Positions 12,564 to 28,088 of a stretch of DNA of 32,662 bases are shown here, piece by piece. The translations under genes were made by a program, and so were the position numbers. The stretch's first letter is position 1, and each line of letters begins with the position of its first letter. The notes beneath the pieces are model-generated. The model made no database searches, was not told the origin of the DNA, and was given only the letters and a program-made list of their open reading frames with translations. This DNA comes from a virus, in the IMG/VR virus record IMGVR_UViG_3300017782_000102, positions 1 to 32,662 of that record; one strand, written 5' to 3'.

Positions 12564-12571
12564 TATAAATA
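12564..12571 (+). promoter_or_regulatory. T4-type late promoter for the gp8-to-cassette unit
   Basis: Exact TATAAATA in the 46-base gap between the gp7-like gene and the next ATG (12598). ATAAATA is flanked by CCTT (12561-12564) and AAGG (12572-12575), a small perfect inverted repeat. A ribosome binding site TAGGAAA (12585-12591) follows. No further late promoter was found on this strand until 27694, so this element probably drives about 15 kb. Confidence 0.85.
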
Positions 12572-14525: not shown

Positions 14526-17500
14526 ATGGCAACAGTATATACAGATACTTTATTTGAAACAAAATATAAGGATGACTTCAACGATAGTGATGGTTACTAT
14601 CGAATATTGTTCAACAGTGGTCGGTCGCTACAAGCGCGTGAACTTACTCAGGCACAAACAATCATTCAAAAACAGATTGAACGATTTGGTAATAACATAT
14701 TCAAAGAAGGTGCAGCGGTCAAGCCTGGTGGACTATCGATTGACAACAGTTACGAATTTGTAAAACTTGACACAACATCATCATCCACAACTGCTAATGT
14801 CGGTACTATACTAACTGGTGCAACATCTGGTATCAAAGCAGAAGTTCTCCAAAGGGTCGATGCAATTGCAGGTGATCCTGTTACAGTATATGTAAGGTAC
14901 GTTGATACATCTGCGGCATCTATAACAACATCCACACCAAGGTTCTTAGCAGGTGAAAGTCTAGGATCTGGTAGAGTTGTCCAAATTACAAATACAGATG
15001 TAAACCCTGCAGTAGGTAAAGGTACTCGTGCACTAACTGGTGACAGTATCTACTTTACTCAAGGTTTCTTCGTATATACAGAATCACAAAGTGCAATCAT
15101 ATCAAAGTACACTGACGATCCTACAACTAATGTGGGTTTTAAAATTATACAAGAGGTGCAGAGTGTAGATGACAACTTACAGTTATATGATAACCAAGGG
15201 TCATCCATAAACACAACTGCTCCAGGCGCAGACAGATATTGTATTAAACTAAGACTGACTTCAGATGATCAGTTGACATCTGATGAGAACTTTATTCATA
15301 TTAACACAGTAAAAGAAGGTGCGATATTCTCTGCAGTGGTTGCTCAACAGGACATGGCATATGCTATTCCTAGAGACATGGTTGCAACTAGAATAAAAGA
15401 AAACTCTGGTGATTATATCGTAAAACCATTCCGTATCACATTTGAAGAGGATTCTGCAGATACACATTTAATAATGAGAGCGAGTGATGGTATCGTTGTA
15501 GTAAATGGATATAGAGCTGCTAGGTTTACACCAACTGACTTTAGAGTTCCTAAACCAACTTCTGACATTGAGGTTGAAGGTGAATTCATGCCAGTTGACT
15601 ATGGTAACTTTGTTGATGTTGCATCTACAGGTGTCAAAGGTGGCCCTGACATTAAAACGTTTGCGGTACAGAATCTTCGTTCTTCAATCAATCATGGTGG
15701 TTCAACGATAGGTACTGCACGTGTTCGTGCGGTGCATGAGAATGGTGCAAACCTAAGATATCACTTATTCGATATCAAGATGAACACAGGTCAATCATTT
15801 AGGAATGCAAAATCTATTGGTACATCTGTAACATCTTACTTCAACCCAATTCAAACAACTGTTAACAATATCGTATTAGAAGATCCAACCAATAATACGT
15901 TGGTATATGATACACTACGTCAAAGACCTAGAGTTATAGATCCTCAACAGATAGAAGTACAAATCCTTAGATCAGGAACAACTGATGGTGCAGGTAACTT
16001 TACTGTAAGTATTCCAACTGCATATGCATTGACTAACAAAAGTGATTGGTTGGTATTTACCTCTTCTGGATTGGTAGACAACTCAACTCTTGGTGGGTTA
16101 AACACTGGGTCTAACACAACAACTATTACAGGGTTGGCAACTTCAACAGCTGTTAAAGTATATGTCTATGGTGTAACTTCAACACCTATTGTTCGTGCCA
16201 AAACACTTACACAGAATGCTACAGTAACTACTAGTGTACAAACAGATGCACAAACAGGTCAGAAGTTTTTAGACTTACAAACACCAGACATTAAAAGTGT
16301 TAGTAGAGTTACTCTTGTAGACTCTGATGGTGCAGACGTTGCATACAAGTTTAAACTCGATGATGGTCAGAGAGATAACTTTTATGGACTAGGTAGAATG
16401 GTACTGAGTGGTGGTCAATCAGCCCCTGCAGGAAATGTATATGTTAAGTTTGATCATTTCAATCATGGTGCAGGTAACTTCTTTGCAGTTAACTCATACA
16501 CTGGTGTTGTGGATTACGATGACATTCCTAGTTTTACGAGATCTAACGGAGAGATCATAAATCTAAGAGACGCATATGACTTTCGTCCTGTAATGAATTC
16601 TTCTGGAAACTTCACAGAAGCAAACATATCATACTTACCAACTCCTACAGATGTAATTCAATCAGACAATACTTACTATCTGTCAAGAGCACACAAGTTA
16701 CTAATCAATACTGACGGTGAACTTGATATAATAAGGGGTGCAGATGCATTCAACCCTCAGTTCCCACAGGCGCCAGAGAGTACATTACCACTTTATAACT
16801 TTACATTCTATCCAAACACGTTGAATGAAAACGATATGTCAGTCCAAAAGATTGATCACCGTAGGTACACTATGGATGACATCAATCAATTGGAGAAACG
16901 TATTTCAAATCTAGAAGAAGCAACTTCTCTCAACATGTTAGAACTTGCAACTAATAGTTTTGAAGTGTTAGACTCTGCAGGTCTAAACAGAACTAAGTCT
17001 GGTTTCTTTGTAGATAATTTTACAACACATGTGTTATCAGATGTGACAAACCTAGATTACTTTGCATCTATAGATCCTTCAGTTGGTATATTACGTCCAA
17101 CATTTACAGAAGACAATATAAGATTAATGTTTGATTCTGCAAACTCAACAGGTGTTGTTCGCAGAGGTGATAACATATACATCGACTACACTGAGTCAAC
17201 ATATATTACTCAAGAACATGCGACAAAAGCGGTTAAGATAAATCCTTTTTCAAATTCTATCTTTACAGGTAACTTACGAATATCTCCTGCTTCAGATGAG
17301 TGGAAAGATAAAAAGATAGGAGCAAGGAATGTTATTGATGGTGGTGAAAGACTATCTACCAATCAGGCTGCAAACTGGAACAATTGGGAATGGAACTGGG
17401 GTGGTAAAGATCTAGAGGATCTTAAAATTGGAGATGAAACAAACACCATCTCAAAAACTTCAGGTAGAACAACTACTAAAACTGTGAACAAAGTTATATC

Positions 17501-18551
17501 AGAAAGTGTTGTTGAAGAAATAATAGGAACACGAGTTCTACAGGTTGCATTACTACCGTTTATTAGATCTCGTATTATTAGTATTCGAGCACAAGGTATG
17601 AGACCTAACGCAAATGTATTCTTGTTCATGGATGGTAAAAACATGTCAGACTATGTTCGTGAATCTGCATTCCAAAGATATTCTTCTACAACTAAAGATT
17701 ACGGTAATACATTATCTAATAAAACTTCACATAAAGATGGTTCAGGAACATTAACTACTGATATTACAGGGTCAGTTGACATATCTTTCATGATACCAAA
17801 TAATAGTTCTTTTAGATTTAGATCTGGTACACATGAAATAAAAGTTATGGATGTTGGCGCAAATCAAGAAAGACTTGCAGGTACGATTGCTAGAGGTGTT
17901 TATACTGCACAAGGTACACTAGACACTATTCATCAGGATATAAAATCAACTAGGATACTAGAAGTTGAAGGATCTAAGAGTTCGGTCACATCACCTGCAC
18001 CTACAAGAAATAGCAATAACTCAACTCTCCATGATCGTAATAAATCAAATGCTCCGACTGTTCAAGGTAACACATATAAGTGGGATAACGAAACTCAAAC
18101 TATGCTCAAGTTTCCTCCGCCTGGTAAACCAATACGTGGGGACAACCAAGACTACAATGATGCGGCCTTTCCAAGCACACCAAGTAATAACGGTACTGTT
18201 CTATGTTCTCTACTATATCGCAGAGGATATCTACCACAAGAGATCTGGGAACAAGATCACGAGTTTGGTATATGGATGTCAGAAAATGATCCAGATGTAT
18301 TCAATGGTTACCACTCATGGGCGGTTCCAATGGTAGATTGGATAGAGAAAGAATCTCTATTGTCTAAGGTTTACTTCCATGGATGGGTCAGACCATTCAC
18401 TGGTGCATGGGCACAACACATTGCACACCGCATGGAACCAAAGAAGTACAAAGATAATAAGGTTGGAAGATTGATGTTAAATATAGGTGTTCCATTATGT
18501 AGAAGTATTGGTAAATTAATGAGACGCAATAAGGGTATGGAGAACGTATAA
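14526..18551 (+). CDS. Giant DUF4815 virion structural protein
   Basis: 1341 residues. The N-terminus (residues about 24-69: YYRILFNSGRSLQAREL, then QIERFGNNIFKEGAAV) is the DUF4815 signature of marine T4-like phages. In those genomes it lies near gp8 and is thought to do the work of outer baseplate proteins such as gp10. A short coiled coil follows at about residues 781-800 (DDINQLEKRISNLEEAT). The middle is a series of beta domains with Gly-rich turns. The C-terminal 200 residues contain the aromatic HSWAVPMVDWIEKESLLSKVYFHG-type block (split by the start of the last domain) and a very basic tail. It shares one base with the next gene (TAATG). I infer a baseplate-to-fibre connector. Confidence 0.8.
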   Translation: MATVYTDTLFETKYKDDFNDSDGYYRILFNSGRSLQARELTQAQTIIQKQIERFGNNIFKEGAAVKPGGLSIDNSYEFVKLDTTSSSTTANVGTILTGATSGIKAEVLQRVDAIAGDPVTVYVRYVDTSAASITTSTPRFLAGESLGSGRVVQITNTDVNPAVGKGTRALTGDSIYFTQGFFVYTESQSAIISKYTDDPTTNVGFKIIQEVQSVDDNLQLYDNQGSSINTTAPGADRYCIKLRLTSDDQLTSDENFIHINTVKEGAIFSAVVAQQDMAYAIPRDMVATRIKENSGDYIVKPFRITFEEDSADTHLIMRASDGIVVVNGYRAARFTPTDFRVPKPTSDIEVEGEFMPVDYGNFVDVASTGVKGGPDIKTFAVQNLRSSINHGGSTIGTARVRAVHENGANLRYHLFDIKMNTGQSFRNAKSIGTSVTSYFNPIQTTVNNIVLEDPTNNTLVYDTLRQRPRVIDPQQIEVQILRSGTTDGAGNFTVSIPTAYALTNKSDWLVFTSSGLVDNSTLGGLNTGSNTTTITGLATSTAVKVYVYGVTSTPIVRAKTLTQNATVTTSVQTDAQTGQKFLDLQTPDIKSVSRVTLVDSDGADVAYKFKLDDGQRDNFYGLGRMVLSGGQSAPAGNVYVKFDHFNHGAGNFFAVNSYTGVVDYDDIPSFTRSNGEIINLRDAYDFRPVMNSSGNFTEANISYLPTPTDVIQSDNTYYLSRAHKLLINTDGELDIIRGADAFNPQFPQAPESTLPLYNFTFYPNTLNENDMSVQKIDHRRYTMDDINQLEKRISNLEEATSLNMLELATNSFEVLDSAGLNRTKSGFFVDNFTTHVLSDVTNLDYFASIDPSVGILRPTFTEDNIRLMFDSANSTGVVRRGDNIYIDYTESTYITQEHATKAVKINPFSNSIFTGNLRISPASDEWKDKKIGARNVIDGGERLSTNQAANWNNWEWNWGGKDLEDLKIGDETNTISKTSGRTTTKTVNKVISESVVEEIIGTRVLQVALLPFIRSRIISIRAQGMRPNANVFLFMDGKNMSDYVRESAFQRYSSTTKDYGNTLSNKTSHKDGSGTLTTDITGSVDISFMIPNNSSFRFRSGTHEIKVMDVGANQERLAGTIARGVYTAQGTLDTIHQDIKSTRILEVEGSKSSVTSPAPTRNSNNSTLHDRNKSNAPTVQGNTYKWDNETQTMLKFPPPGKPIRGDNQDYNDAAFPSTPSNNGTVLCSLLYRRGYLPQEIWEQDHEFGIWMSENDPDVFNGYHSWAVPMVDWIEKESLLSKVYFHGWVRPFTGAWAQHIAHRMEPKKYKDNKVGRLMLNIGVPLCRSIGKLMRRNKGMENV

Positions 18552-20137
18552 TGTTAAATTCTTTAGGATATCAACAGAATAAAAACCCGATTGCTCAATC
18601 ATTTTTTGTTGACGAAACAAGTGGGATTTACGTAACTAAAATAAATTTATATTTTAAAAATACGTTTCCTGCAACTGCAGAGTTGCAACTTCCTGTCATG
18701 CTACATCTAAGACCAATGAGAAATGGTGTACCTTCTGACGTAGAAGTTGTGCCTGGATCTACAGTTTATGTTGCTCACAATGCGGTGCAAACATCTACAG
18801 ATGGTTCGACTGCAACAGCGTTTACTTTTAACGAACCAATCTTTTTAGATGGTCTTAGGGACTATGCGATTGTAGTTTATGCAGAAACACCAGAGTATGA
18901 GATCTTTATATCTGAAATAGATGATCAAATCATTGGTTCTGCTTCTGCACGTGTCAGTTTAAACCCCAACTTAGGTAGTTTGTTCTATTCTCAAAACGGT
19001 GCAACTTTCTCTGCAAACCAAAAACAAGATCTGAAGTTTGATATTGTTCGTGCAGTGTTTGATACTACCACAACTCTACCAGTTGTCAAGTTAAAAAATG
19101 CATCAGTTCCTCGTGAACTATTGAATTCGAATCCAATCAGGACTTACGAAGCTGACAGTGATGTTAGAGTATATCATACAAATCATGGACTACAAGTTGG
19201 TGATACTGTTTCTATAACAGGTTCGAATTCTGTTGGTGGGTTCACCGCAAATCAAATCAATGGTGATCATAGTATCACTCGTATAGATGCAAGTGGATTT
19301 GAATTTAAAATCGCAGATACCGCAGACTCGGATGAAGTGGGTGGTGGATCATTAGTACAAAGTACAAAGAACATTCCATACTCTATTGTATGGCCTTTCA
19401 TATCAAATCTAAAACCAAATGGAACTGATCTGTATGCTTCTTTCAAAGGTACTAATGGTAAATCCCTTGCAGGTATAGAAACACCTTATACAGTAGATGC
19501 AGATTTCACAGGTGTGAGTTTAAATAAAAATAACTTTGCGCTAGAACATCCTTATGTTATTGCTGCAGACTCAATTGCAGATGCAGAGATTGCGGTAGGT
19601 GCATCGACTGCAGAAATGGAAATCAAGATGTCTACGGCACTGAATACCGTATCTCCTGTCATCGATCTTCAAAGATGTTCTATAACATTGATTGATAATG
19701 TGATTGATAATCAAGATTCCGCTGCAACTAATGGATTTAATATTCCATTGAATTTTATCTCAGAAACTAATGCAAACAGATCTTCTGGGCCAGCAAAACA
19801 TATTACAACTGTAACAACTCTTGCAGAGACTGCAGTTGGATTGAAAGTTATTCTTGCCGCAAATAGACCAAAACCTGCAGGAATAGATCTTTATTATAGA
19901 ACTTGTGATGAGGGTACAGATATTCGTGCGGTTGATTTTGTTAAACAAACAACATCATCTAATAACCCCCCAGATGCAAATAAACAAACTTTCAGAGAAT
20001 ATGAATATCTAATCGGTGGACAAGCAGGTAATGTTCCTGCCTTTACAAAGTTTCAGTTGAAAATTGTTATGACTTCTACTAACTCTGCACAAGTTCCAAG
20101 TATAAAGGATTTAAGAGTAATCGCATTGAGTGTATAA
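18551..20137 (+). CDS. Virion structural protein, partner of the DUF4815 protein
   Basis: 528 residues. The N-terminal domain (NPIAQSFFVDETSGIYVTKI, residues about 12-31, followed by a strand series and FNEPIFLDGLRDYAIVVYAE) is a beta-sandwich pattern that recurs in marine T4-like phages just after, or fused to, DUF4815. A second domain with VRVYHTNHGLQVGDTVSITG (about 206-225) is a known fibre-associated motif ('H-G-L-x-x-G-d-x-V-x-i-s-G'). Both are typical of baseplate-peripheral proteins. The one-base overlap with its upstream neighbour suggests coupled synthesis, and the pair may once have been one protein. No enzyme motif is seen. Confidence 0.72.
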   Translation: MLNSLGYQQNKNPIAQSFFVDETSGIYVTKINLYFKNTFPATAELQLPVMLHLRPMRNGVPSDVEVVPGSTVYVAHNAVQTSTDGSTATAFTFNEPIFLDGLRDYAIVVYAETPEYEIFISEIDDQIIGSASARVSLNPNLGSLFYSQNGATFSANQKQDLKFDIVRAVFDTTTTLPVVKLKNASVPRELLNSNPIRTYEADSDVRVYHTNHGLQVGDTVSITGSNSVGGFTANQINGDHSITRIDASGFEFKIADTADSDEVGGGSLVQSTKNIPYSIVWPFISNLKPNGTDLYASFKGTNGKSLAGIETPYTVDADFTGVSLNKNNFALEHPYVIAADSIADAEIAVGASTAEMEIKMSTALNTVSPVIDLQRCSITLIDNVIDNQDSAATNGFNIPLNFISETNANRSSGPAKHITTVTTLAETAVGLKVILAANRPKPAGIDLYYRTCDEGTDIRAVDFVKQTTSSNNPPDANKQTFREYEYLIGGQAGNVPAFTKFQLKIVMTSTNSAQVPSIKDLRVIALSV

Positions 20138-21165: not shown

Positions 21166-21837
21166 ATGACACGTAAGGTAACAGTAGATTTAACAGACGC
21201 AGTTGGTTCTTTTATGACCAAGACCAACCAGATATCCGATTACATTGGAGATCTGGATAATCTAGACTCTACTTTCTCAGGTGCTGATAATACAGTAGTA
21301 AGTGCACTGAATAGAGTTGGTGATTTGACAGACTCTATTAACAGGAGATTGTTTGGTGAATCTGCAGGGCCTTTGCATATGCAGGGTATCAATTGTGACT
21401 CAGCGTCTTTCGCTTTAATGAGGGCAGGTCAACTTATTGCAGACAGTGCGACTATCGATTCCGCATTTATTAAAAATCTAGACGTTGACTTCTTAATGGT
21501 TGACAGTGCAAGAATTGAAAGACTGACAGTTTCTGAAGCAATAATAGACTCCGCACTTATAGACTCTGCAACTATACAAAGATTAAGAGCACCCAATCTG
21601 TTATCAGATAGTGCACACATTAATACATTAACAACACATACTCTTAGTGCAGACTCTGCGTACTTTGACATGGCGACAATAGAGAATACATTTGTCACCA
21701 CCTTGTACATGGATGATGCAGGTAATGTGCAGAGAGCATTAGATAATCTAAAACTATTCACAGTAAAAAATGAAGCTGGTACTGCAGTAATATCTGGTTT
21801 CTTCCTATCAACCTCATCAACAACAAGTGTACCGTAA
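21166..21837 (+). CDS. DSA-repeat structural protein, paralogue 2
   Basis: 223 residues, behind a ribosome binding site AGAGG (21153-21157). The first 40 residues (TRKVTVDLTDAVGSFMTKTNQI, then DYIGDLDNLDSTF) align with paralogue 1, as does the end (LYMDDAGNVQRAL, then LFTVKNEAGTAVISGFFL). The centre (about 85-185) is a denser run of at least seven DSA units: DSASF, DSATI, DSAFI, DSARI, DSALI, DSATI, DSAHI and DSAYF. This looks like a pentapeptide-type solenoid or a triple-chain fibre shaft. The codons for D-S-A differ from unit to unit, so the repeats are old or selected, not a recent expansion. Function is inferred to be structural. Confidence 0.7.
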   Translation: MTRKVTVDLTDAVGSFMTKTNQISDYIGDLDNLDSTFSGADNTVVSALNRVGDLTDSINRRLFGESAGPLHMQGINCDSASFALMRAGQLIADSATIDSAFIKNLDVDFLMVDSARIERLTVSEAIIDSALIDSATIQRLRAPNLLSDSAHINTLTTHTLSADSAYFDMATIENTFVTTLYMDDAGNVQRALDNLKLFTVKNEAGTAVISGFFLSTSSTTSVP

Positions 21838-22862
21838 TGACAGTTCGAAGAGCGCTTCTAATAAGAAATTCAGAAGCAATAAGAGAATTTACAAATACTG
21901 AACGAGACAATATACACAAGTTTATTGCTAGGTGTTATGCTGATGCTAGTAATAATAGTGGTGGAGTCAAGTTAAATTTTGTATCAAGTGCAGGTTCTCT
22001 TGATGCTATGACAGACACTCGTATGCAATCTGGTACTTCTGTTGAAACTACAGGTAACCAAGACGCAGTTGATGATGGTGCAGCTGAGTTTGCAAATGAA
22101 GCAACTACTCCAGAACCTACATCCTTTACTCATGAGACATTTGATAAAATAGACCAATCTAGATTAAATCCATCTAGCACTTCTAATGGTTTTACATCTA
22201 GTGACTGGGATACTTGGACTGCAAAACCTGTTTACATGGAATCAGATGATGTCATAAGAGAGATGACTTTTCAAGATGTTCTAGACACATTCATAGATCC
22301 TGTAATTGATAACATAGTATCTGGGACAACTTCTGACTTTGCAGGTGGTACATATTTTATTAGTACGAACTCTTCTGAAACTAACTGTAGCAATTTAGGT
22401 GTTGTGTTTATTGACACGATCACTGACACGGGAACTATAACGGCGGCAAGTATAGGGGAAGATGGTACTGTTCAACAGGGAAGTGCAACTACTCAAACAA
22501 CCTATAGGTTATTTAAAAATAATGGTGTCGTTGTCACTCGTAAACTACCACTAGTAATAGACTATACAGGTAATGGTAGAACTAACCCAGGCGGATTAAG
22601 AGAAATGACTACTGCTGAGTTTTTTGATTTAATGTGCAAATTGATTAGAAGACAAGTATTCGATGGTACAAGTAATACTTTAACTTACAGTATAAATGGA
22701 ACTGGTGTTGCAAAAGGCACATCTATGGTAGATACAAGACTGAATGGATCTGGAGCTCATAATACTCTCTTTGTAGATGCAGACGATTATCGTGCTCAAG
22801 AATTTCCAGATGGAACTGCAGTCGCCGCTCAAACATATACATTAAGATTAAACAGGACTTAA
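21837..22862 (+). CDS. Virion structural protein of unknown class
   Basis: 341 residues, starting in a TAATG overlap with paralogue 2. It opens with RRALLIRNSEAIREFTNTERDNI and has a low-complexity acidic/Thr linker (about 60-105). A central region has DVLDTFIDPVIDNIV (about 149-163). A compact C-terminal domain has TAEFFDLMCKLIRRQVFDG and ends TYTLRLNRT. I have seen this general arrangement in marine T4-like phages near fibre genes, without known function. Base composition and codon use look like the other structural genes, so I group it with them and not with the cassette that follows. The next gene begins after one base. Confidence 0.65.
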   Translation: MTVRRALLIRNSEAIREFTNTERDNIHKFIARCYADASNNSGGVKLNFVSSAGSLDAMTDTRMQSGTSVETTGNQDAVDDGAAEFANEATTPEPTSFTHETFDKIDQSRLNPSSTSNGFTSSDWDTWTAKPVYMESDDVIREMTFQDVLDTFIDPVIDNIVSGTTSDFAGGTYFISTNSSETNCSNLGVVFIDTITDTGTITAASIGEDGTVQQGSATTQTTYRLFKNNGVVVTRKLPLVIDYTGNGRTNPGGLREMTTAEFFDLMCKLIRRQVFDGTSNTLTYSINGTGVAKGTSMVDTRLNGSGAHNTLFVDADDYRAQEFPDGTAVAAQTYTLRLNRT

Positions 22863-22863
22863 C

Positions 22864-23346
22864 ATGATTGATGATCACGAATTTTCAGATGCTTATTACA
22901 TAAACAATGAAAGAACAACATTAAAAACTGAGTGGATAGATAATAAGGATAAAAGTATTTTAAGACCATATATAATTGAGGTTGATAAAGATCCAGAGAT
23001 TTACAAAAAGTTTTTAGAAATGGTTGGTGTTAGTGAAGACTGGCTCAATGAAAGAACTTGGGAAAGAATAAAACTACAAAGAGAAAATTATGAACTTGAA
23101 GTACTTGAAATAGCAAAACGAAATAATGATTTTGTACAAGTAGTAAATCAAAATGACTCTAAAGAATTTATTGAGGGACTTTATAAGTATCTAAATAAAC
23201 CGATGAGTTCTAAAGATTTATTTACTTTTAAATTAAGTTTATTTGAACATGAAAGTGTACAAAAAAGTAAAAAGAAAAAAGTAAAATCAGGTATACGTAC
23301 AGCAAATTCAGCAAAGGAAGCATTTAAGTTATTCTTAGAAATTTAA
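22864..23346 (+). CDS. Unknown acidic/lysine-rich protein at the cassette border
   Basis: 160 residues, no recognised domain. The first half is mixed charge with conserved-looking DDHEFSDAYYINNERTTLKTEW-type residues broken by turns. The second half is predicted helical with LYKYLNKPMSSKDLFTFKLSLF and a basic patch KKKKVKSGIR near residue 137. It ends in a helix (AKEAFKLFLEI). The DNA is AT-richer than the structural genes upstream, as in the genes that follow. One base separates it from the upstream gene and four from the glycosyltransferase-like gene. It could be a virion protein or the first gene of the cassette; I cannot tell. Confidence 0.6.
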   Translation: MIDDHEFSDAYYINNERTTLKTEWIDNKDKSILRPYIIEVDKDPEIYKKFLEMVGVSEDWLNERTWERIKLQRENYELEVLEIAKRNNDFVQVVNQNDSKEFIEGLYKYLNKPMSSKDLFTFKLSLFEHESVQKSKKKKVKSGIRTANSAKEAFKLFLEI

Positions 23347-23350
23347 TTTA

Positions 23351-24091
23351 ATGAAAAATATATTATGTGTAAAGTGGGGTGACAAGTATACTTCTGAACA
23401 TGTAGAAAAATTAAAACAACAAGTAGAAAAACACTGCTCATACGATTTTAATTTTTACTGTCTCACCGACAAACCAGAAAAAGAATATGACATTCAGTTA
23501 CCGACTTGGATGGACGAACACTATATTCCAGAGAAGAATTTCTTTTGGGCATATAGAAAATGTTATATGTTTGACCAAACTAAAATATTCGGTGATGAAT
23601 CATCTGATGATGAGTTTTTATTTTTTGACATTGACGTACTAATACACAATTCTATAGATCCACTATGGGAACTACCTATGGATAAACCATATATCGTAAG
23701 GGGGTGGTGGAATAGTATCGAGAACTGTCAAAAGAATTATGGTAAATTAAAATCAACTCCATTAAATTCTTCAGTGATTAGATGGAACGGCCTGCAATTG
23801 AAAAGGGTTTATGATAATATAAGAAAAAATGCACCTATGATTTTTTTTACATATCGAACTATTGATAACTATTTTAATCACTTTTTCTATGATGTGCATA
23901 ATGAAGAAGAATCATTTTTTCGTGGTTATCCAAAAGGTATGATATATTCTTGGTATAAAGGTAATATATATGGGGAAGATATGGAATTAAAAAAATTAAG
24001 AAAAGATTATATGATATGTTTATTTAATAATAGTGCTTCGGGAATCGATGAAGATATGAATGACATAAGTGAGATAGATGAACTATATTAA
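23351..24091 (+). CDS. Glycosyltransferase-like protein 1 (GT-A, DxD)
   Basis: 246 residues. The start ILCVKWGDKYTSEHVEKL is followed by the strand FYCLTD, as at the nucleotide-sugar binding edge of GT-A enzymes. Asp93-Ile-Asp95 in FFDIDVLI is the metal-binding DxD motif that holds the sugar nucleotide. Residues 120-150 (YIVRGWWN, then LNSSVIRWNG) fit the acceptor-side segments of GT8-like or capsular-type transferases. The likely reaction is transfer of a sugar from a UDP-/GDP-sugar to a glycan or a protein. It is related in its first 100 residues to the gene at 26997. It overlaps the next gene by 14 bases. Donor and acceptor are unknown. Confidence 0.7.
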   Translation: MKNILCVKWGDKYTSEHVEKLKQQVEKHCSYDFNFYCLTDKPEKEYDIQLPTWMDEHYIPEKNFFWAYRKCYMFDQTKIFGDESSDDEFLFFDIDVLIHNSIDPLWELPMDKPYIVRGWWNSIENCQKNYGKLKSTPLNSSVIRWNGLQLKRVYDNIRKNAPMIFFTYRTIDNYFNHFFYDVHNEEESFFRGYPKGMIYSWYKGNIYGEDMELKKLRKDYMICLFNNSASGIDEDMNDISEIDELY

Positions 24092-24728
24092 GTATACACC
24101 TTTTATTAGTAATAATTGGATGAGATCATTAAACTATGTGCATAAAGAAAAACCACATCTGTTTCAAAGAGTATTAGATTCTTTTACAGAATCTCAACTT
24201 GAAAGTAAACTATGGTTAAATAATGAATTAAATAAAATTCAAAATGAATTTAATAATGTAGCAGTGATAGGTGGATGGTATTGTCATGTATTAACTAATA
24301 TCTTGATTGAAAACTTTAATGCTCAGTTTGTTTGCAATTACGATATAGATAAAGACTCTAAGACATTAAGTTATAAATTTAATAAAAAATACAAAGACGA
24401 TGAAAAGTATTATTGTAGCAATAGAAATTTATTTTCAGTGTATCAACCTATAGAAGGAAGACAACGTTACCAAGGGGAAGTTGACTTGTTAATAAATACA
24501 TCATGTGAACATATGTATTATATGAAAGATCTTTTAAAAAGAAATTTTACAACTTCAAGACCTTTGTGTGTGTTACAATCTACAGATAATGATGAATATG
24601 ACGATCATATAAATTGTGTAAAAGATCCAGAAGAGTTAGCAGAACAGGCCGACTTAGTAGATGTTAAATATATGGGTACGAAGAAACTTAGTAACGGAAT
24701 GAATAGGTTTATGGTAATAGGAAGATGA
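24078..24728 (+). CDS. Class I SAM methyltransferase-like protein
   Basis: 216 residues. Motif I lies at 61-68 (VAVIGGWY); the glycine pair sits where the GxGxG loop binds S-adenosylmethionine. The acidic strand end is Asp89-Ile-Asp91 in CNYDIDKDS. A motif IV-like VDLLINTSCEHM lies at 135-146. The order and spacing fit a Rossmann-fold methyltransferase, though the glycine loop is shorter than usual and SAM binding is not certain. Asn140-Thr-Ser-Cys143 in the motif IV position differs from the N/D-PP-Y/F of base-N methyltransferases, so DNA methylation is not supported. I recall related proteins with 'N-T-S-C-E-H-M' in marine phages. Overlaps: 14 bases upstream, ATGA (four bases) downstream. 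Confidence 0.65.
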   Translation: MNYIKYTPFISNNWMRSLNYVHKEKPHLFQRVLDSFTESQLESKLWLNNELNKIQNEFNNVAVIGGWYCHVLTNILIENFNAQFVCNYDIDKDSKTLSYKFNKKYKDDEKYYCSNRNLFSVYQPIEGRQRYQGEVDLLINTSCEHMYYMKDLLKRNFTTSRPLCVLQSTDNDEYDDHINCVKDPEELAEQADLVDVKYMGTKKLSNGMNRFMVIGR

Positions 24729-25747
24729 AAAACTCAGATTTAAAATATATGAGTGCAACCGCTTTCAGTGATATGAAACGAGGAGAGGTGTATTGGCAAC
24801 CTAACAGGTTTTGTAATTATGCTTGTTCTTATTGTTGGCCTTCATCTCATACCAATAAAAAAGATTTTGTAGATAAAGACTTAGCATATAGAACTATCGA
24901 TAGAGTTATACCACTTATGAAAAAACGTGGAATAGAATCTATCAACTGGGGATGGTCAGGTGGTGAAGCAACATTTCATCCTAACTTTTTAGACTTTCAA
25001 GAACGAATATTGAGTTACACTCCTGATATGGGAGCAACTTTTAATATTACTACTAATCTATCTCATAACATGCCTTGGTGGGAAGAATTTATAAGAAGAA
25101 CAGAAAAATATGACTTCAGAGTTATTACTAGTTCATTACATCAAGAATATGTTGACACACCTGCAAAGGTAGAAAAATTTATTGATAAACTAGATTATTT
25201 AAAAGACGCTGGATGTCGAGTGACAATAAATCAAGTGATGGATCCTGATATATATGACGATCAGATAAAAGTCCTAGAAAGGTTTTATGAAAGAGATCAT
25301 CATGTAAGTCGTAAAATAAACTCTAGGTTGCATAGAGATTATATTAAGTACACTGGTGAAACAGTATACGAAGAAGAACAAATTGAGGATATGAATAATT
25401 CTCATATAAGAAAAACTGGAAGAGGGCCACTTATTACAGTCCTAGACAAAGATGATAACAAAATACCAATTAGACATTTTGAGGAAATAAAAAATAATCA
25501 ACTTTGGGCATTGCAAGATTGGGTTTGCTCTGTAGGTTACATATCTGTATGCATAGAAGGCGAGATAATAAAAAGAGGTGTTGGAGGGTGTCACAAACAG
25601 GTGATAGGAAAAATGACAGATGATTGGGAATTGTACGATGAACCTAAACTATGCGGATCTACAAGTTATTGTTCTTGTGTAGCAGATCTTAAATTGCCAA
25701 AATGGAATCCCAAATATGTTGCTGAAAGCGAATGGAAAAAAACTTAA
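24725..25747 (+). CDS. Radical SAM enzyme with C-terminal cysteine set (SPASM/twitch-like)
   Basis: 340 residues. Cys30, Cys34 and Cys37 (CNYACSYCW) form the CX3CX2C site for the 4Fe-4S cluster that cleaves S-adenosylmethionine to the 5'-deoxyadenosyl radical. Gly79-Gly80-Glu81 (SGGEATFHP) is the GGE motif that holds the SAM amino group. Six more cysteines lie at 268, 276, 289, 310, 316 and 318, a pattern suited to one or two auxiliary clusters as in SPASM or twitch proteins, many of which modify peptides or small substrates. QueE, the radical SAM step of queuosine synthesis, is shorter, has a different cysteine spacing and lacks this tail. The gene overlaps the methyltransferase by ATGA and the PP-loop gene by 32 bases. 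Substrate unknown. Confidence 0.85.
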   Translation: MKNSDLKYMSATAFSDMKRGEVYWQPNRFCNYACSYCWPSSHTNKKDFVDKDLAYRTIDRVIPLMKKRGIESINWGWSGGEATFHPNFLDFQERILSYTPDMGATFNITTNLSHNMPWWEEFIRRTEKYDFRVITSSLHQEYVDTPAKVEKFIDKLDYLKDAGCRVTINQVMDPDIYDDQIKVLERFYERDHHVSRKINSRLHRDYIKYTGETVYEEEQIEDMNNSHIRKTGRGPLITVLDKDDNKIPIRHFEEIKNNQLWALQDWVCSVGYISVCIEGEIIKRGVGGCHKQVIGKMTDDWELYDEPKLCGSTSYCSCVADLKLPKWNPKYVAESEWKKT

Positions 25748-26474
25748 ATTCTTAGAGTTTGATACATCAACATTCGATAGAGTGTTTTTAGCATTATCAG
25801 GTGGTACGGACTCTGCGATGATCTTATACTTACTCTGTAAGATAAAACCAGAATGGAAAATAATTTGTCATACAGGAATTGACAAACACAAAGATCCATG
25901 GGTAGGTGAGTATGCTTCAGAGATCGTAGGTTTTATGCAAAATAAATTTCCTAATGTAGAAATTATACATGAGCAATATAAATTCGATAGTTTAGATCCC
26001 ATAACATTATACTATGCTAAAAAAGAATGGGATGCAATAGAAGATAAGTCTGTCTTACCTACAGCTCAGGGGTATTCTAAAGCATTTGCTTCCCAAGATT
26101 TAAAAAGCAAACTTAGAATAAAATATGATATAAAACTATCGATACATGGTATTACTGCTAATCCTCCTATGGAGGTGCAAAAAAAACTTGGTTTTGATAA
26201 AGTTGCTGAACCTAGAAGAAATAAAACGTACAAAGAAGAGACGTGGAAAAAATCAGGTAAGATGCATTATAGACCCTTTGTTAACGTAGATAAAAAGTTC
26301 GTTTCTGATCTATATAAACAATTTAATTTAATGGATGATTTATTCCCTCTTACAATGTCTTGTATAGGTTTTGAAAAAGAAACAAATTATTTTACTGAAC
26401 CATGTAAAGAATGTTACTGGTGTCATGAAAAAAAATGGGCATTCGGTTGTTATGATGGAGGTTTAGTTGAGTAA
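25716..26474 (+). CDS. PP-loop ATP pyrophosphatase, QueC-like
   Basis: 252 residues. The PP-loop Ser28-Gly-Gly-Thr-Asp-Ser33 (LALSGGTDSAMILYLL) binds the ATP phosphates, and such enzymes adenylate a carboxyl or amide group. The C-terminus has Cys216 in TMSCIG, then Cys230, Cys233 and Cys236 in CKECYWCHEKKWAFG; this matches the zinc site of QueC (7-cyano-7-deazaguanine synthase) in arrangement, including the aromatic-Phe end. The centre differs from QueC and no QueD, QueE or FolE lies in the window, so a different substrate is likely. N-type ligases of nucleotide-sugar pathways are another option. It starts inside the radical SAM gene; no clear ribosome binding site supports the ATG, so coupled translation is likely. 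The call of the exact start is less certain. Confidence 0.78.
   Translation: MLLKANGKKLKFLEFDTSTFDRVFLALSGGTDSAMILYLLCKIKPEWKIICHTGIDKHKDPWVGEYASEIVGFMQNKFPNVEIIHEQYKFDSLDPITLYYAKKEWDAIEDKSVLPTAQGYSKAFASQDLKSKLRIKYDIKLSIHGITANPPMEVQKKLGFDKVAEPRRNKTYKEETWKKSGKMHYRPFVNVDKKFVSDLYKQFNLMDDLFPLTMSCIGFEKETNYFTEPCKECYWCHEKKWAFGCYDGGLVE
26457..26461 (+). promoter_or_regulatory. Ribosome binding site deciding a TTG start
   Basis: GGAGG, the strongest Shine-Dalgarno sequence in the cassette, lies five bases before TTG (26467-26469). No ATG or GTG in this frame lies at a comparable distance. It supports a TTG start for the kinase-like gene, located within the end of the PP-loop gene. Confidence 0.7.
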
Positions 26475-27000
26475 ACTACCTAATAATTTACCAGATAATT
26501 TTTTTGATCATATGTGGCCTGGAAAAAAGAATTGGAAAGACGCAAGTAAATATGGTATCATGGGAGATATGTTTTGGAAAGAAATTAGTTGGAATATAGA
26601 TGATGACTGGTTAGATGAATATAAAAAGTTGAGAGAATATGAACCTAGACTAGTTGAGGTATATGGATATGAAAAAAGAAGAATCTATATGCAATGGATT
26701 GACGGAGATATACTGAGACGTAATTTAGATTTAGATTGTTTTATAGAAGCATGTGACATTATGAAAAGCATAGCAACTTATGCTAAAAACAATCCACGAC
26801 CTAGTAAAATTTATCCTGATATGGGATTTTGGTTTCATCATGATATGGCTCCTAGAAATTTTATGATTGAAAAAAATACAAAAAAGGTGTACTTAATAGA
26901 TCCTGATACATTTGGTTTTTGGATATATGGTCAAAAAGAATCTGATATAAAAGACGCTGCTAATTATAAGGGAATGTCAACTGAGAGAAAACCAGAATGA
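26467..27000 (+). CDS. Short kinase/aminoglycoside-phosphotransferase-like protein
   Basis: 177 residues, TTG start chosen because of the GGAGG just upstream. Residues 124-131 (HHDMAPRN) match the HxDxxxxN catalytic loop of APH and choline-kinase-like folds, and Asp145 in LIDPDTFGF fits the metal-binding DFG/DxD position. EPRLVEVYGYEKRRIYMQWIDG (about residues 58-79, in two strands) looks like the hinge region that precedes the C-lobe. The N-lobe that carries the ATP-binding Gly loop and Lys is missing or much reduced, because the protein is about half the usual size. It may be a pseudokinase, a compact kinase, or use a partner. It overlaps its upstream neighbour by eight bases and its downstream neighbour by ATGA. 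Confidence 0.6.
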   Translation: MSKLPNNLPDNFFDHMWPGKKNWKDASKYGIMGDMFWKEISWNIDDDWLDEYKKLREYEPRLVEVYGYEKRRIYMQWIDGDILRRNLDLDCFIEACDIMKSIATYAKNNPRPSKIYPDMGFWFHHDMAPRNFMIEKNTKKVYLIDPDTFGFWIYGQKESDIKDAANYKGMSTERKPE

Positions 27001-27689
27001 AAATAATTGCTGTAAGGATCGGTGATAAGTACGGGCCTGAATATGAAGAATACTTAGAATCTAAATTACCTGAATATGAATTTATATGGGTAAGAGAACC
27101 CATAAGAGAAGATGTCACCCTTCAATGGAATAAAATGTATGGCATGTCTCTTGACATAGACGAACCAGTATGTGTGATGGATATTGACATTATACTTACA
27201 AACGACTATAAAAAAGTATTTGAATATCCTATAGAACCAGGCGAGTTTGCATGTATGCCAGGCTGGTGGAGAGACAGTAATCCAGAGTATACACTAAACG
27301 GTGGATTCTTCAAATACTATCCAAAAGATTGTAGATACATATATGATGAGTTTATGTCAAATGTAGACTATTGGCAACAGTATTATATTAACAACGGTAT
27401 CACAAAAGGCCCTGTAAACGGTGAACAGTATTTTGTGTTTGATCAGGTCAATAAAAAATTAAATATAAAACTTCTTCCTTCTGCATGGTTTACCAGATGG
27501 AAAACCAAATTTCAAGACAGTGACTACCAATATGATAAATGGCAATGGAACATGACTCAGAAATATAAAGAAGTTTCTGGTAATGACTATGTGTGGATGG
27601 GTGAATTTCACGAAGATATAAAGTTTGTACATTTTACGCACTCAAGTAATAAACCAACAGAATGGAAACACTATTCGTCAAAACCCTAA
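26997..27689 (+). CDS. Glycosyltransferase-like protein 2 (GT-A, DxD)
   Basis: 230 residues. It opens like transferase 1 (IIAVRIGDKYGPEYEEYL, with the shared Ile-x-x-V-x-x-Gly-Asp-Lys-Tyr pattern) and has Asp62-Ile-Asp64 in VMDIDIIL as the metal-binding DxD. FACMPGWWRDSN and LNGGFFKYYPKD follow, as expected for the acceptor-side part of GT-A proteins. A carboxy-terminal His-rich end (FHEDIKFVHFTHSS) could supply another metal or donor contact, as in GT8 'HxxGxxKPW' enzymes, here with KPTEWKHY near the end. The gene closes the cassette; the stop is four bases before the next late promoter. It may be a duplicate of transferase 1 with its own donor or acceptor. Confidence 0.7.
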   Translation: MKIIAVRIGDKYGPEYEEYLESKLPEYEFIWVREPIREDVTLQWNKMYGMSLDIDEPVCVMDIDIILTNDYKKVFEYPIEPGEFACMPGWWRDSNPEYTLNGGFFKYYPKDCRYIYDEFMSNVDYWQQYYINNGITKGPVNGEQYFVFDQVNKKLNIKLLPSAWFTRWKTKFQDSDYQYDKWQWNMTQKYKEVSGNDYVWMGEFHEDIKFVHFTHSSNKPTEWKHYSSKP

Positions 27690-27693
27690 TCGT

Positions 27694-27701
27694 TATAAAT
27701 A
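27694..27701 (+). promoter_or_regulatory. T4-type late promoter for the tail-fibre genes
   Basis: Exact TATAAATA preceded by CG, giving CGTTATAAATA. CGTT (27691-27694) and AACG (27702-27705) form a small inverted repeat around ATAAATA, as with CCTT/AAGG at 12561. It is 42 bases upstream of the 27744 start. Confidence 0.85.
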
Positions 27702-27743: not shown

Positions 27744-28088
27744 ATGGCAGAATACGAAAAATTTACATTCGACATCGGGTCGGATATCGCAGTACAATTA
27801 GAACTTGTAGACCTTAGTGGTAATCCAAAGGATCTTTCAAATTATTCTGCTGCAGCTAAAATGAAACGGAACTACAATTCCGATTCTGCTGACACAACTG
27901 ACTTCTCCGTAGCAATACAACCTACTGATGGTGTAGTAACTCTTTCCTTGACAAACCTACAGACTAACCAACTTCGTGTCGGTAACTACGTTTATGATGT
28001 GGAAATCTCTTTTGTTGACTCCAATGGATCAACAGTAGTTGAGAGAGTCCTTGAAGGAAAGATACGAGCTAACCCATCGGTAACATAA
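27744..28088 (+). CDS. BppU-like N-terminal domain protein (fibre-associated)
   Basis: 114 residues. The sequence runs as a single beta-sandwich: FDIGSDIAVQLELVDLSGNP, then LSNYSAAAKMKRNY, then GVVTLSLTNLQTNQL and GNYVYDVEISF, ending KIRANPSVT. This order (a leading 'G-d-x-a-v-q-l-e-l-x-d-x-x-G', a 'Y-d-v-e' strand, a 'G-k-i-x-v-x-P-x-V-T' end) is the BppU_N-type domain found in receptor-binding proteins of many phages. It is the first gene after a late promoter and shares one base with the next (TAATG), directly before two large fibre genes. A role in fibre attachment is likely. The start was chosen by domain completeness; the ribosome binding site is weak. Confidence 0.7.
   Translation: MAEYEKFTFDIGSDIAVQLELVDLSGNPKDLSNYSAAAKMKRNYNSDSADTTDFSVAIQPTDGVVTLSLTNLQTNQLRVGNYVYDVEISFVDSNGSTVVERVLEGKIRANPSVT

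Follow-up and report, generated by a model that had tools for sequence, protein, structure and literature searches.

What is the role of a run of enzyme-like genes in the structural region of a marine phage? The DNA analyzed here, referred to as the window, is an IMG/VR virus record of 32,662 b. Its gene content, which includes baseplate hub, wedge and VrlC-like genes, is that of the tail region of a T4-like marine myovirus. Among phage records, its gp6-like protein was matched best by Phage C48C1 (Kyanoviridae, 39.8%), with cyanophages next at about 30%. A first-pass annotation had described six enzyme-like genes between the baseplate and fibre genes, with overlaps of 4, 8, 14 and 32 bases. 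All six open reading frames were present on the + strand in the order GT1, MT, radical SAM, PP-loop, kinase-like and GT3 (Table 1), and the successive overlaps were 14, 4, 32, 8 and 4 b. None of the six proteins contained a stretch resembling a membrane segment. The small gene before GT1, called UP, is probably the upstream boundary of this cassette; a structural-region gene (21837-22862) lies just upstream of it.

Table 1. Positions of the cassette genes, their neighbours and the late promoters in the window
Feature	Position	Strand	Remarks
TATAAATA, nearest late promoter upstream of the cassette	12564..12571	+	Starts the operon with baseplate genes that contains the cassette
UP, small conserved gene of unassigned role	22864..23346	+	Relative before GT1 in 41 of 44 GT1+MT contigs
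GT1, GT-A-type glycosyltransferase-like	23351..24091	+	Invariant D93xD95; found in 44 contigs
MT, predicted class I SAM-methyltransferase fold	24078..24728	+	Invariant N140 and C143-E144-H145 (NTSCEHM motif)
Radical SAM enzyme	24725..25747	+	CX3CX2C (C30, C34, C37) and invariant Cys 268, 289, 310, 316; twitch/SPASM-like
PP-loop ATPase, QueC-like fold	25716..26474	+	SGGTDS, PF(x)4K, C-x13-CxxCxxC; NPP in place of QueC YPDC
Small APH/kinase-like protein	26467..27000	+	TTG start; HxD....RNF, LIDPD
GT3, GT-A-like glycosyltransferase-like, constant last cassette gene	26997..27689	+	Invariant D62xD64
TATAAATA, T4-type late promoter of the fibre unit	27694..27701	+	Begins 5 b past the end of GT3
Fibre-assembly protein (L-shaped tail fibre assembly family), first gene downstream of the cassette	27744..28088	+	

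The enzyme identities proposed in the first-pass annotation held in outline, firmly for the radical SAM protein and by fold, motif or weak profile for the others. The radical SAM protein, whose identity is certain, matched PF04055 with 49.5 bits (cut-off 29.5), and the three cysteines of its CX3CX2C motif were invariant in 21 sequences. Its four C-terminal cysteines, putative ligands of an auxiliary cluster, were also invariant, and the SPASM family of Pfam was unmatched. Identification of this protein as MoaA or viperin was rejected because both scores were below the curated NCBIfam cut-offs (42.9 of 284 bits and 31.1 of 180 bits, respectively). A role in anti-phage defence was likewise set aside, as PADLOC gave weak viperin-like and kinase-like matches only. 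Searches of phage records by tblastn found no match to either the radical SAM or the PP-loop protein. MT had no match in Pfam, but almost every PDB match listed for its predicted model (pLDDT 91.7) was a methyltransferase (TM up to about 0.65), and the model points with confidence to a class I SAM-dependent methyltransferase fold. The kinase-like protein had a sub-threshold match to APH (PF01636; E = 0.018, 15.2 of 23.2 bits), and its HxD....N and DPD motifs were kept in three homologues. Weakest of the cassette identities are the putative glycosyltransferases GT1 and GT3. GT1 had a weak match to a PHROG glycosyltransferase (3e-5) and another to LgtC at the DxD region (E = 0.06), while GT3 was distantly homologous to GT1 and had no profile match above noise. 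The DxD motif was invariant in both families.

The presence of a radical SAM gene adjoining a QueC-like gene favours one possible role, modification of DNA or tRNA through preQ0/7-deazaguanine or a hypermodified base, and this was examined through the PP-loop protein. Its score against Pfam QueC (PF06508) was 17.6 bits, below the cut-off of 22. The ATP loop SGGTDS is at residue 28, and among 21 homologues SGGxDS was found in 18 and S[AG]GxDS in all 21; the PF(x)4K-type motif, TxSC and four zinc-type cysteines were invariant or nearly so. These cysteines were kept but differently spaced, as C-x13-CxxCxxC, and the exact QueC motif C(x)8CxxCxxC occurred in 0 of 21. Three further motifs defined for QueC are YxQxHxxE, VPxRN and YPDC, and the Y, R and Y of these are required for preQ0 formation by E. 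coli QueC (PMC13329287). Each was absent from all 21 homologues, and an alignment read by eye placed an NPP-type motif at the YPDC position. The predicted model (pLDDT 91.7) matched PP-loop enzymes in general in Foldseek; of the 50 listed matches, QueC (3BL5) scored best by target-normalised TM (0.59), yet it ranked 41st. Because the ATP loop and cysteines are kept, the substrate motifs are absent and the structural matches are general, the protein is built on a QueC-like scaffold but is not QueC.

The genomic surroundings also spoke against this role. PF01242 (the PTPS family, QueD) had no match in seven related contigs, which like the window are fragments and one of which is 148 kb, and the controls gave matches in 9 of 14 cases. 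A scan of the seven contigs for PF12851 (TET-type hypermodification) was silent, but so were its controls, and it is not counted as evidence. The radical SAM protein was weakly QueE-like, and the cassette sits in a late tail operon. The QueC/preQ0 pathway is thus disfavoured by the missing substrate motifs and the absence of PF01242, and modification of DNA or tRNA seems very improbable. The first-pass annotation had known of no described pathway with this set of genes; the motif loss and the sub-cut-off scores agree, in that QueC/preQ0, MoaA and viperin all fail to fit.

Other members of the QueC superfamily, Cap9 (type IV CBASS) and QatC, have in common with the PP-loop protein the SGGxDS loop, P[FL](x)4K, TxSC and C-terminal zinc cysteines, and Cap9 was its best PDB sequence match (4e-5). 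In contrast to Cap9 and QatC, the nucleobase-binding motifs of the PP-loop protein are replaced and a CBASS or Qat partner is absent; PADLOC gave no match for it. The substrates of Cap9 and QatC are, or probably are, protein N termini (PMC13279940), which raises the possibility that the cassette makes a modified, natural-product-like peptide or small molecule, or modifies a tail protein without sugars, its GT-like proteins transferring something else. The twitch/SPASM-like radical SAM protein resembles peptide maturases at low score, and the Asp/Asn hydroxylases of the sister cassettes described below could act on protein. However, a precursor-peptide gene was not recognised among the cassette ORFs of at least 40 aa, and the two constant GT-A-like genes point to sugars, which makes this reading improbable.

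To see how the genes are arranged elsewhere, viral contigs were scanned with the PP-loop, radical SAM and MT families, which gave 140 loci including the window, 101 of them non-redundant. A single radical SAM sequence retrieved none and a two-sequence alignment 39, and all locus counts are lower bounds, since exact peptide patterns were required and the MT loci are 80 of 533. GT1 (at least 45% identity) preceded MT in at least 44 of the 101 non-redundant loci, and GT3 was also present in 38 of the 44. The recurrence of one gene order at tail loci, envisaged in the first-pass annotation, was evident: GT1 and MT led and GT3 closed the cassette in about 40 distinct viral contigs, all at one slot, which in the relatives has a VrlC-like gene and a conserved structural-region gene upstream and head-tail connector and tail-sheath stabiliser genes downstream. 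The cassette was also present where the next gene was not a fibre-assembly gene. The idea that these genes belong together was sustained in part. More than 500 viral contigs contain relatives of MT, and in two contigs (L003 and L004) PP-loop relatives stand alone right after a phoH-like gene, outside any decoration cassette; the ordered set is nevertheless conserved in the approximately 40 contigs.

The genes between MT and GT3 were variable. An Asp/Asn beta-hydroxylase relative was found in 30 loci, as was a family of about 443 aa with no Pfam match, and the remainder included several radical SAM families, carbamoyltransferase, 2OG-oxygenase-like and GDSL genes, and a nitroreductase-like protein (read from its sequence; no Pfam match). 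The version with both radical SAM and PP-loop genes occurred in five contigs (the window, L006, L022, L074 and L060), with kinase relatives in L022 and L074, and the PP-loop gene was found without radical SAM in L007, L009, L099 and L101. The 443-aa family (L093, 9156-10487, with about 30 relatives) has the motif SGGSSGSGSGH and usually adjoins the Asp/Asn hydroxylase in sister cassettes.

The sequence TATAAATA is read as a late promoter on the established pattern of T4-type late promoters. It was absent inside the cassette, in agreement with the earlier statement that the cassette has no promoter of its own. Its four copies on the + strand each fall in a different one of the window's four intergenic gaps of at least 30 b; 0.11 would be expected in all gaps together given their own dinucleotide content. 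Over the whole window its count (5 versus 3.2 expected) was not above chance, and its placement alone stands out. In four relatives (L007, L010, L074 and L101) it overlapped the GT3 stop codon and the fibre-assembly gene then followed GT3, as in the window, and in the related loci it was never found just downstream of the GT1, MT, radical SAM or PP-loop genes. Phage C48C1 had the same promoter before its fibre-assembly gene and two other genes in the same slot, read as GT-like and 2OG-oxygenase-like, so the slot is probably an insertion site at the end of a late operon. The late control with tail genes that had been proposed is consistent with this layout, which suggests that the cassette would be expressed late, in one operon with the tail genes.

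The first-pass annotation had also suggested a separate origin for the cassette, on the basis of its low G+C content. The G+C of the cassette genes was indeed lower (27.5-34.2%, versus 33-40% in structural genes), but GC3 was no different (0.20-0.32 versus 0.20-0.31). The low G+C arises at codon positions 1 and 2 and reflects amino-acid composition, so composition is no sign of foreign origin, and the argument from G+C was rejected. Exchange of the cassette was instead shown by gene identities that were incongruent with the backbone gene VrlC. Correlations of distance with VrlC over the whole set were weak (10-16 loci), and the argument is therefore carried by two pairs. Between the window and contig L102, protein identity was 36% for VrlC, 91% for GT1, 84% for MT and 73% for GT3, with the middle replaced by other genes, and the DNA was 86.3% identical over exactly 23350-24728, precisely the stretch occupied by GT1 and MT. 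Between the window and L099, the values were 90% for VrlC, 57% for GT1, 40% for MT and 82% for GT3; the flanks had 83-85% DNA identity, and the radical SAM and kinase genes were missing. These comparisons show that related viruses exchange the cassette as a block or rebuild it gene by gene. The dN/dS of the cassette genes was 0.05-0.15, indicating purifying selection.

The constant ends, swappable middle, late layout, lack of membrane proteins and place by the fibre genes fit a decoration cassette, which most likely makes a small sugar-like decoration and attaches it to the virus tail or to the host surface. Judging from the enzyme families, GT1, GT3 and MT would build or attach a short sugar-like group, and the replaceable middle would set its chemistry: the radical SAM enzyme could remodel a carbon centre, the PP-loop enzyme could use ATP to adenylate a carboxyl or amide group and so form a new C-N bond, and the small kinase could phosphorylate. 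The group would be made during virion assembly, with a tail or fibre protein as the most likely acceptor, which would change adsorption, and the host envelope as the next best. We favour, with slightly less than even confidence, a decoration cassette that is expressed late, is exchanged horizontally, sits in the host-recognition cluster of a Kyanoviridae-like marine myovirus and places its group on a tail or fibre protein, changing adsorption. There is precedent in mycobacteriophages, where, as summarised in PMC12363180 (citing Freeman 2023), phage-encoded glycosyltransferases glycosylate capsid and tail-tube proteins. The systems of Che8, Corndog and Myrna are described there by their glycosyltransferases, and it is at the level of description that they are likened to the cassette.

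The host envelope is nearly as probable a target: an O-antigen or other surface glycan would be decorated during infection, blocking superinfection or the re-adsorption of released virions to debris. The glycosyltransferases and LPS-type genes of this region in pelagimyophages are read in this way, as O-antigen modification, in PMC7029224, and genes usual in surface-sugar clusters, of the carbamoyltransferase, SDR and aminotransferase types, are found in the relatives. The DxD region of GT1 also resembles that of LgtC, an LPS enzyme. However, a late-promoter layout with tail genes suits work on the virion better than early exclusion, and a flippase, a ligase and any membrane protein are absent from the cassette.

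The cassette most likely belongs to an island already known from pelagimyophages and cyanomyophages, the host recognition cluster (HRC; PMC7029224). This is a variable region with tail fibres and glycosyltransferases at the same place, between VrlC and the neck genes, and it gains and loses radical SAM cassettes. VrlC-like genes lie upstream of the cassette in the window, which ends before its own neck genes, and neck genes lie downstream in the relatives. Two abutting ORFs (1341 and 528 aa) encode the VrlC-like protein of the window (14526-20137), each matching a different part of a single 2056-aa PHROG family, while its counterpart in C48C1 is a single ORF. Both this island and its turnover of radical SAM cassettes were known before (PMC7029224). 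No description of the constant GT1-MT ... GT3 frame, the late-promoter boundary, the block exchange or the PP-loop family was found in the open literature, including the available text of that paper, and the glycosyltransferase and radical SAM genes of the region have so far been catalogued as host-surface genes, with no frame around them described.

The constant frame, swappable middle, precise late-promoter boundary and clean block exchange make the cassette a defined unit, and its product can be tested in a cultured relative, the SAR11 phage Pelagibacter phage Mosig EXVC030M. Mosig_00082-00098 include an MT relative (HMM 5e-36) and a glycosyltransferase relative (8e-23), which stand among radical SAM, carbamoyltransferase, aminotransferase and nitroreductase genes. 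The Mosig cluster differs in its middle and in identity (26-29%), and a PP-loop relative was not found among the seven Mosig proteins tested. Should the virion be the acceptor, chemistry as well as sequence would diversify the tails of abundant ocean phages. It is possible, though rather doubtful, that in T4-like marine phages two constant transferases frame an exchangeable set of biosynthetic genes which writes chemically different decorations onto the virion tail; such a cassette would be a chemical counterpart of diversity-generating elements, and its PP-loop member would be a QueC-fold enzyme re-aimed from nucleobase to sugar or protein.

Relatives of the PP-loop gene were also seen on cellular-looking contigs (L156, L157 and L151; Bdellovibrionia and related MAG contigs of up to 937 kb). 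They lie there in the company of many radical SAM genes, together with an MT relative in L156 and a carbamoyltransferase-like gene in L151. The same set of enzymes may also be at work in cellular genomes, some of which belong to predatory bacteria. Four viral contigs (L028, L040, L050 and L059) each contained several radical SAM genes along with sugar-epimerase-, oxygenase- and GT-like genes, and all but L050 contained PP-loop genes. In some of them radical SAM lay directly before MT, and these contigs represent a much larger version of the same cassette theme.
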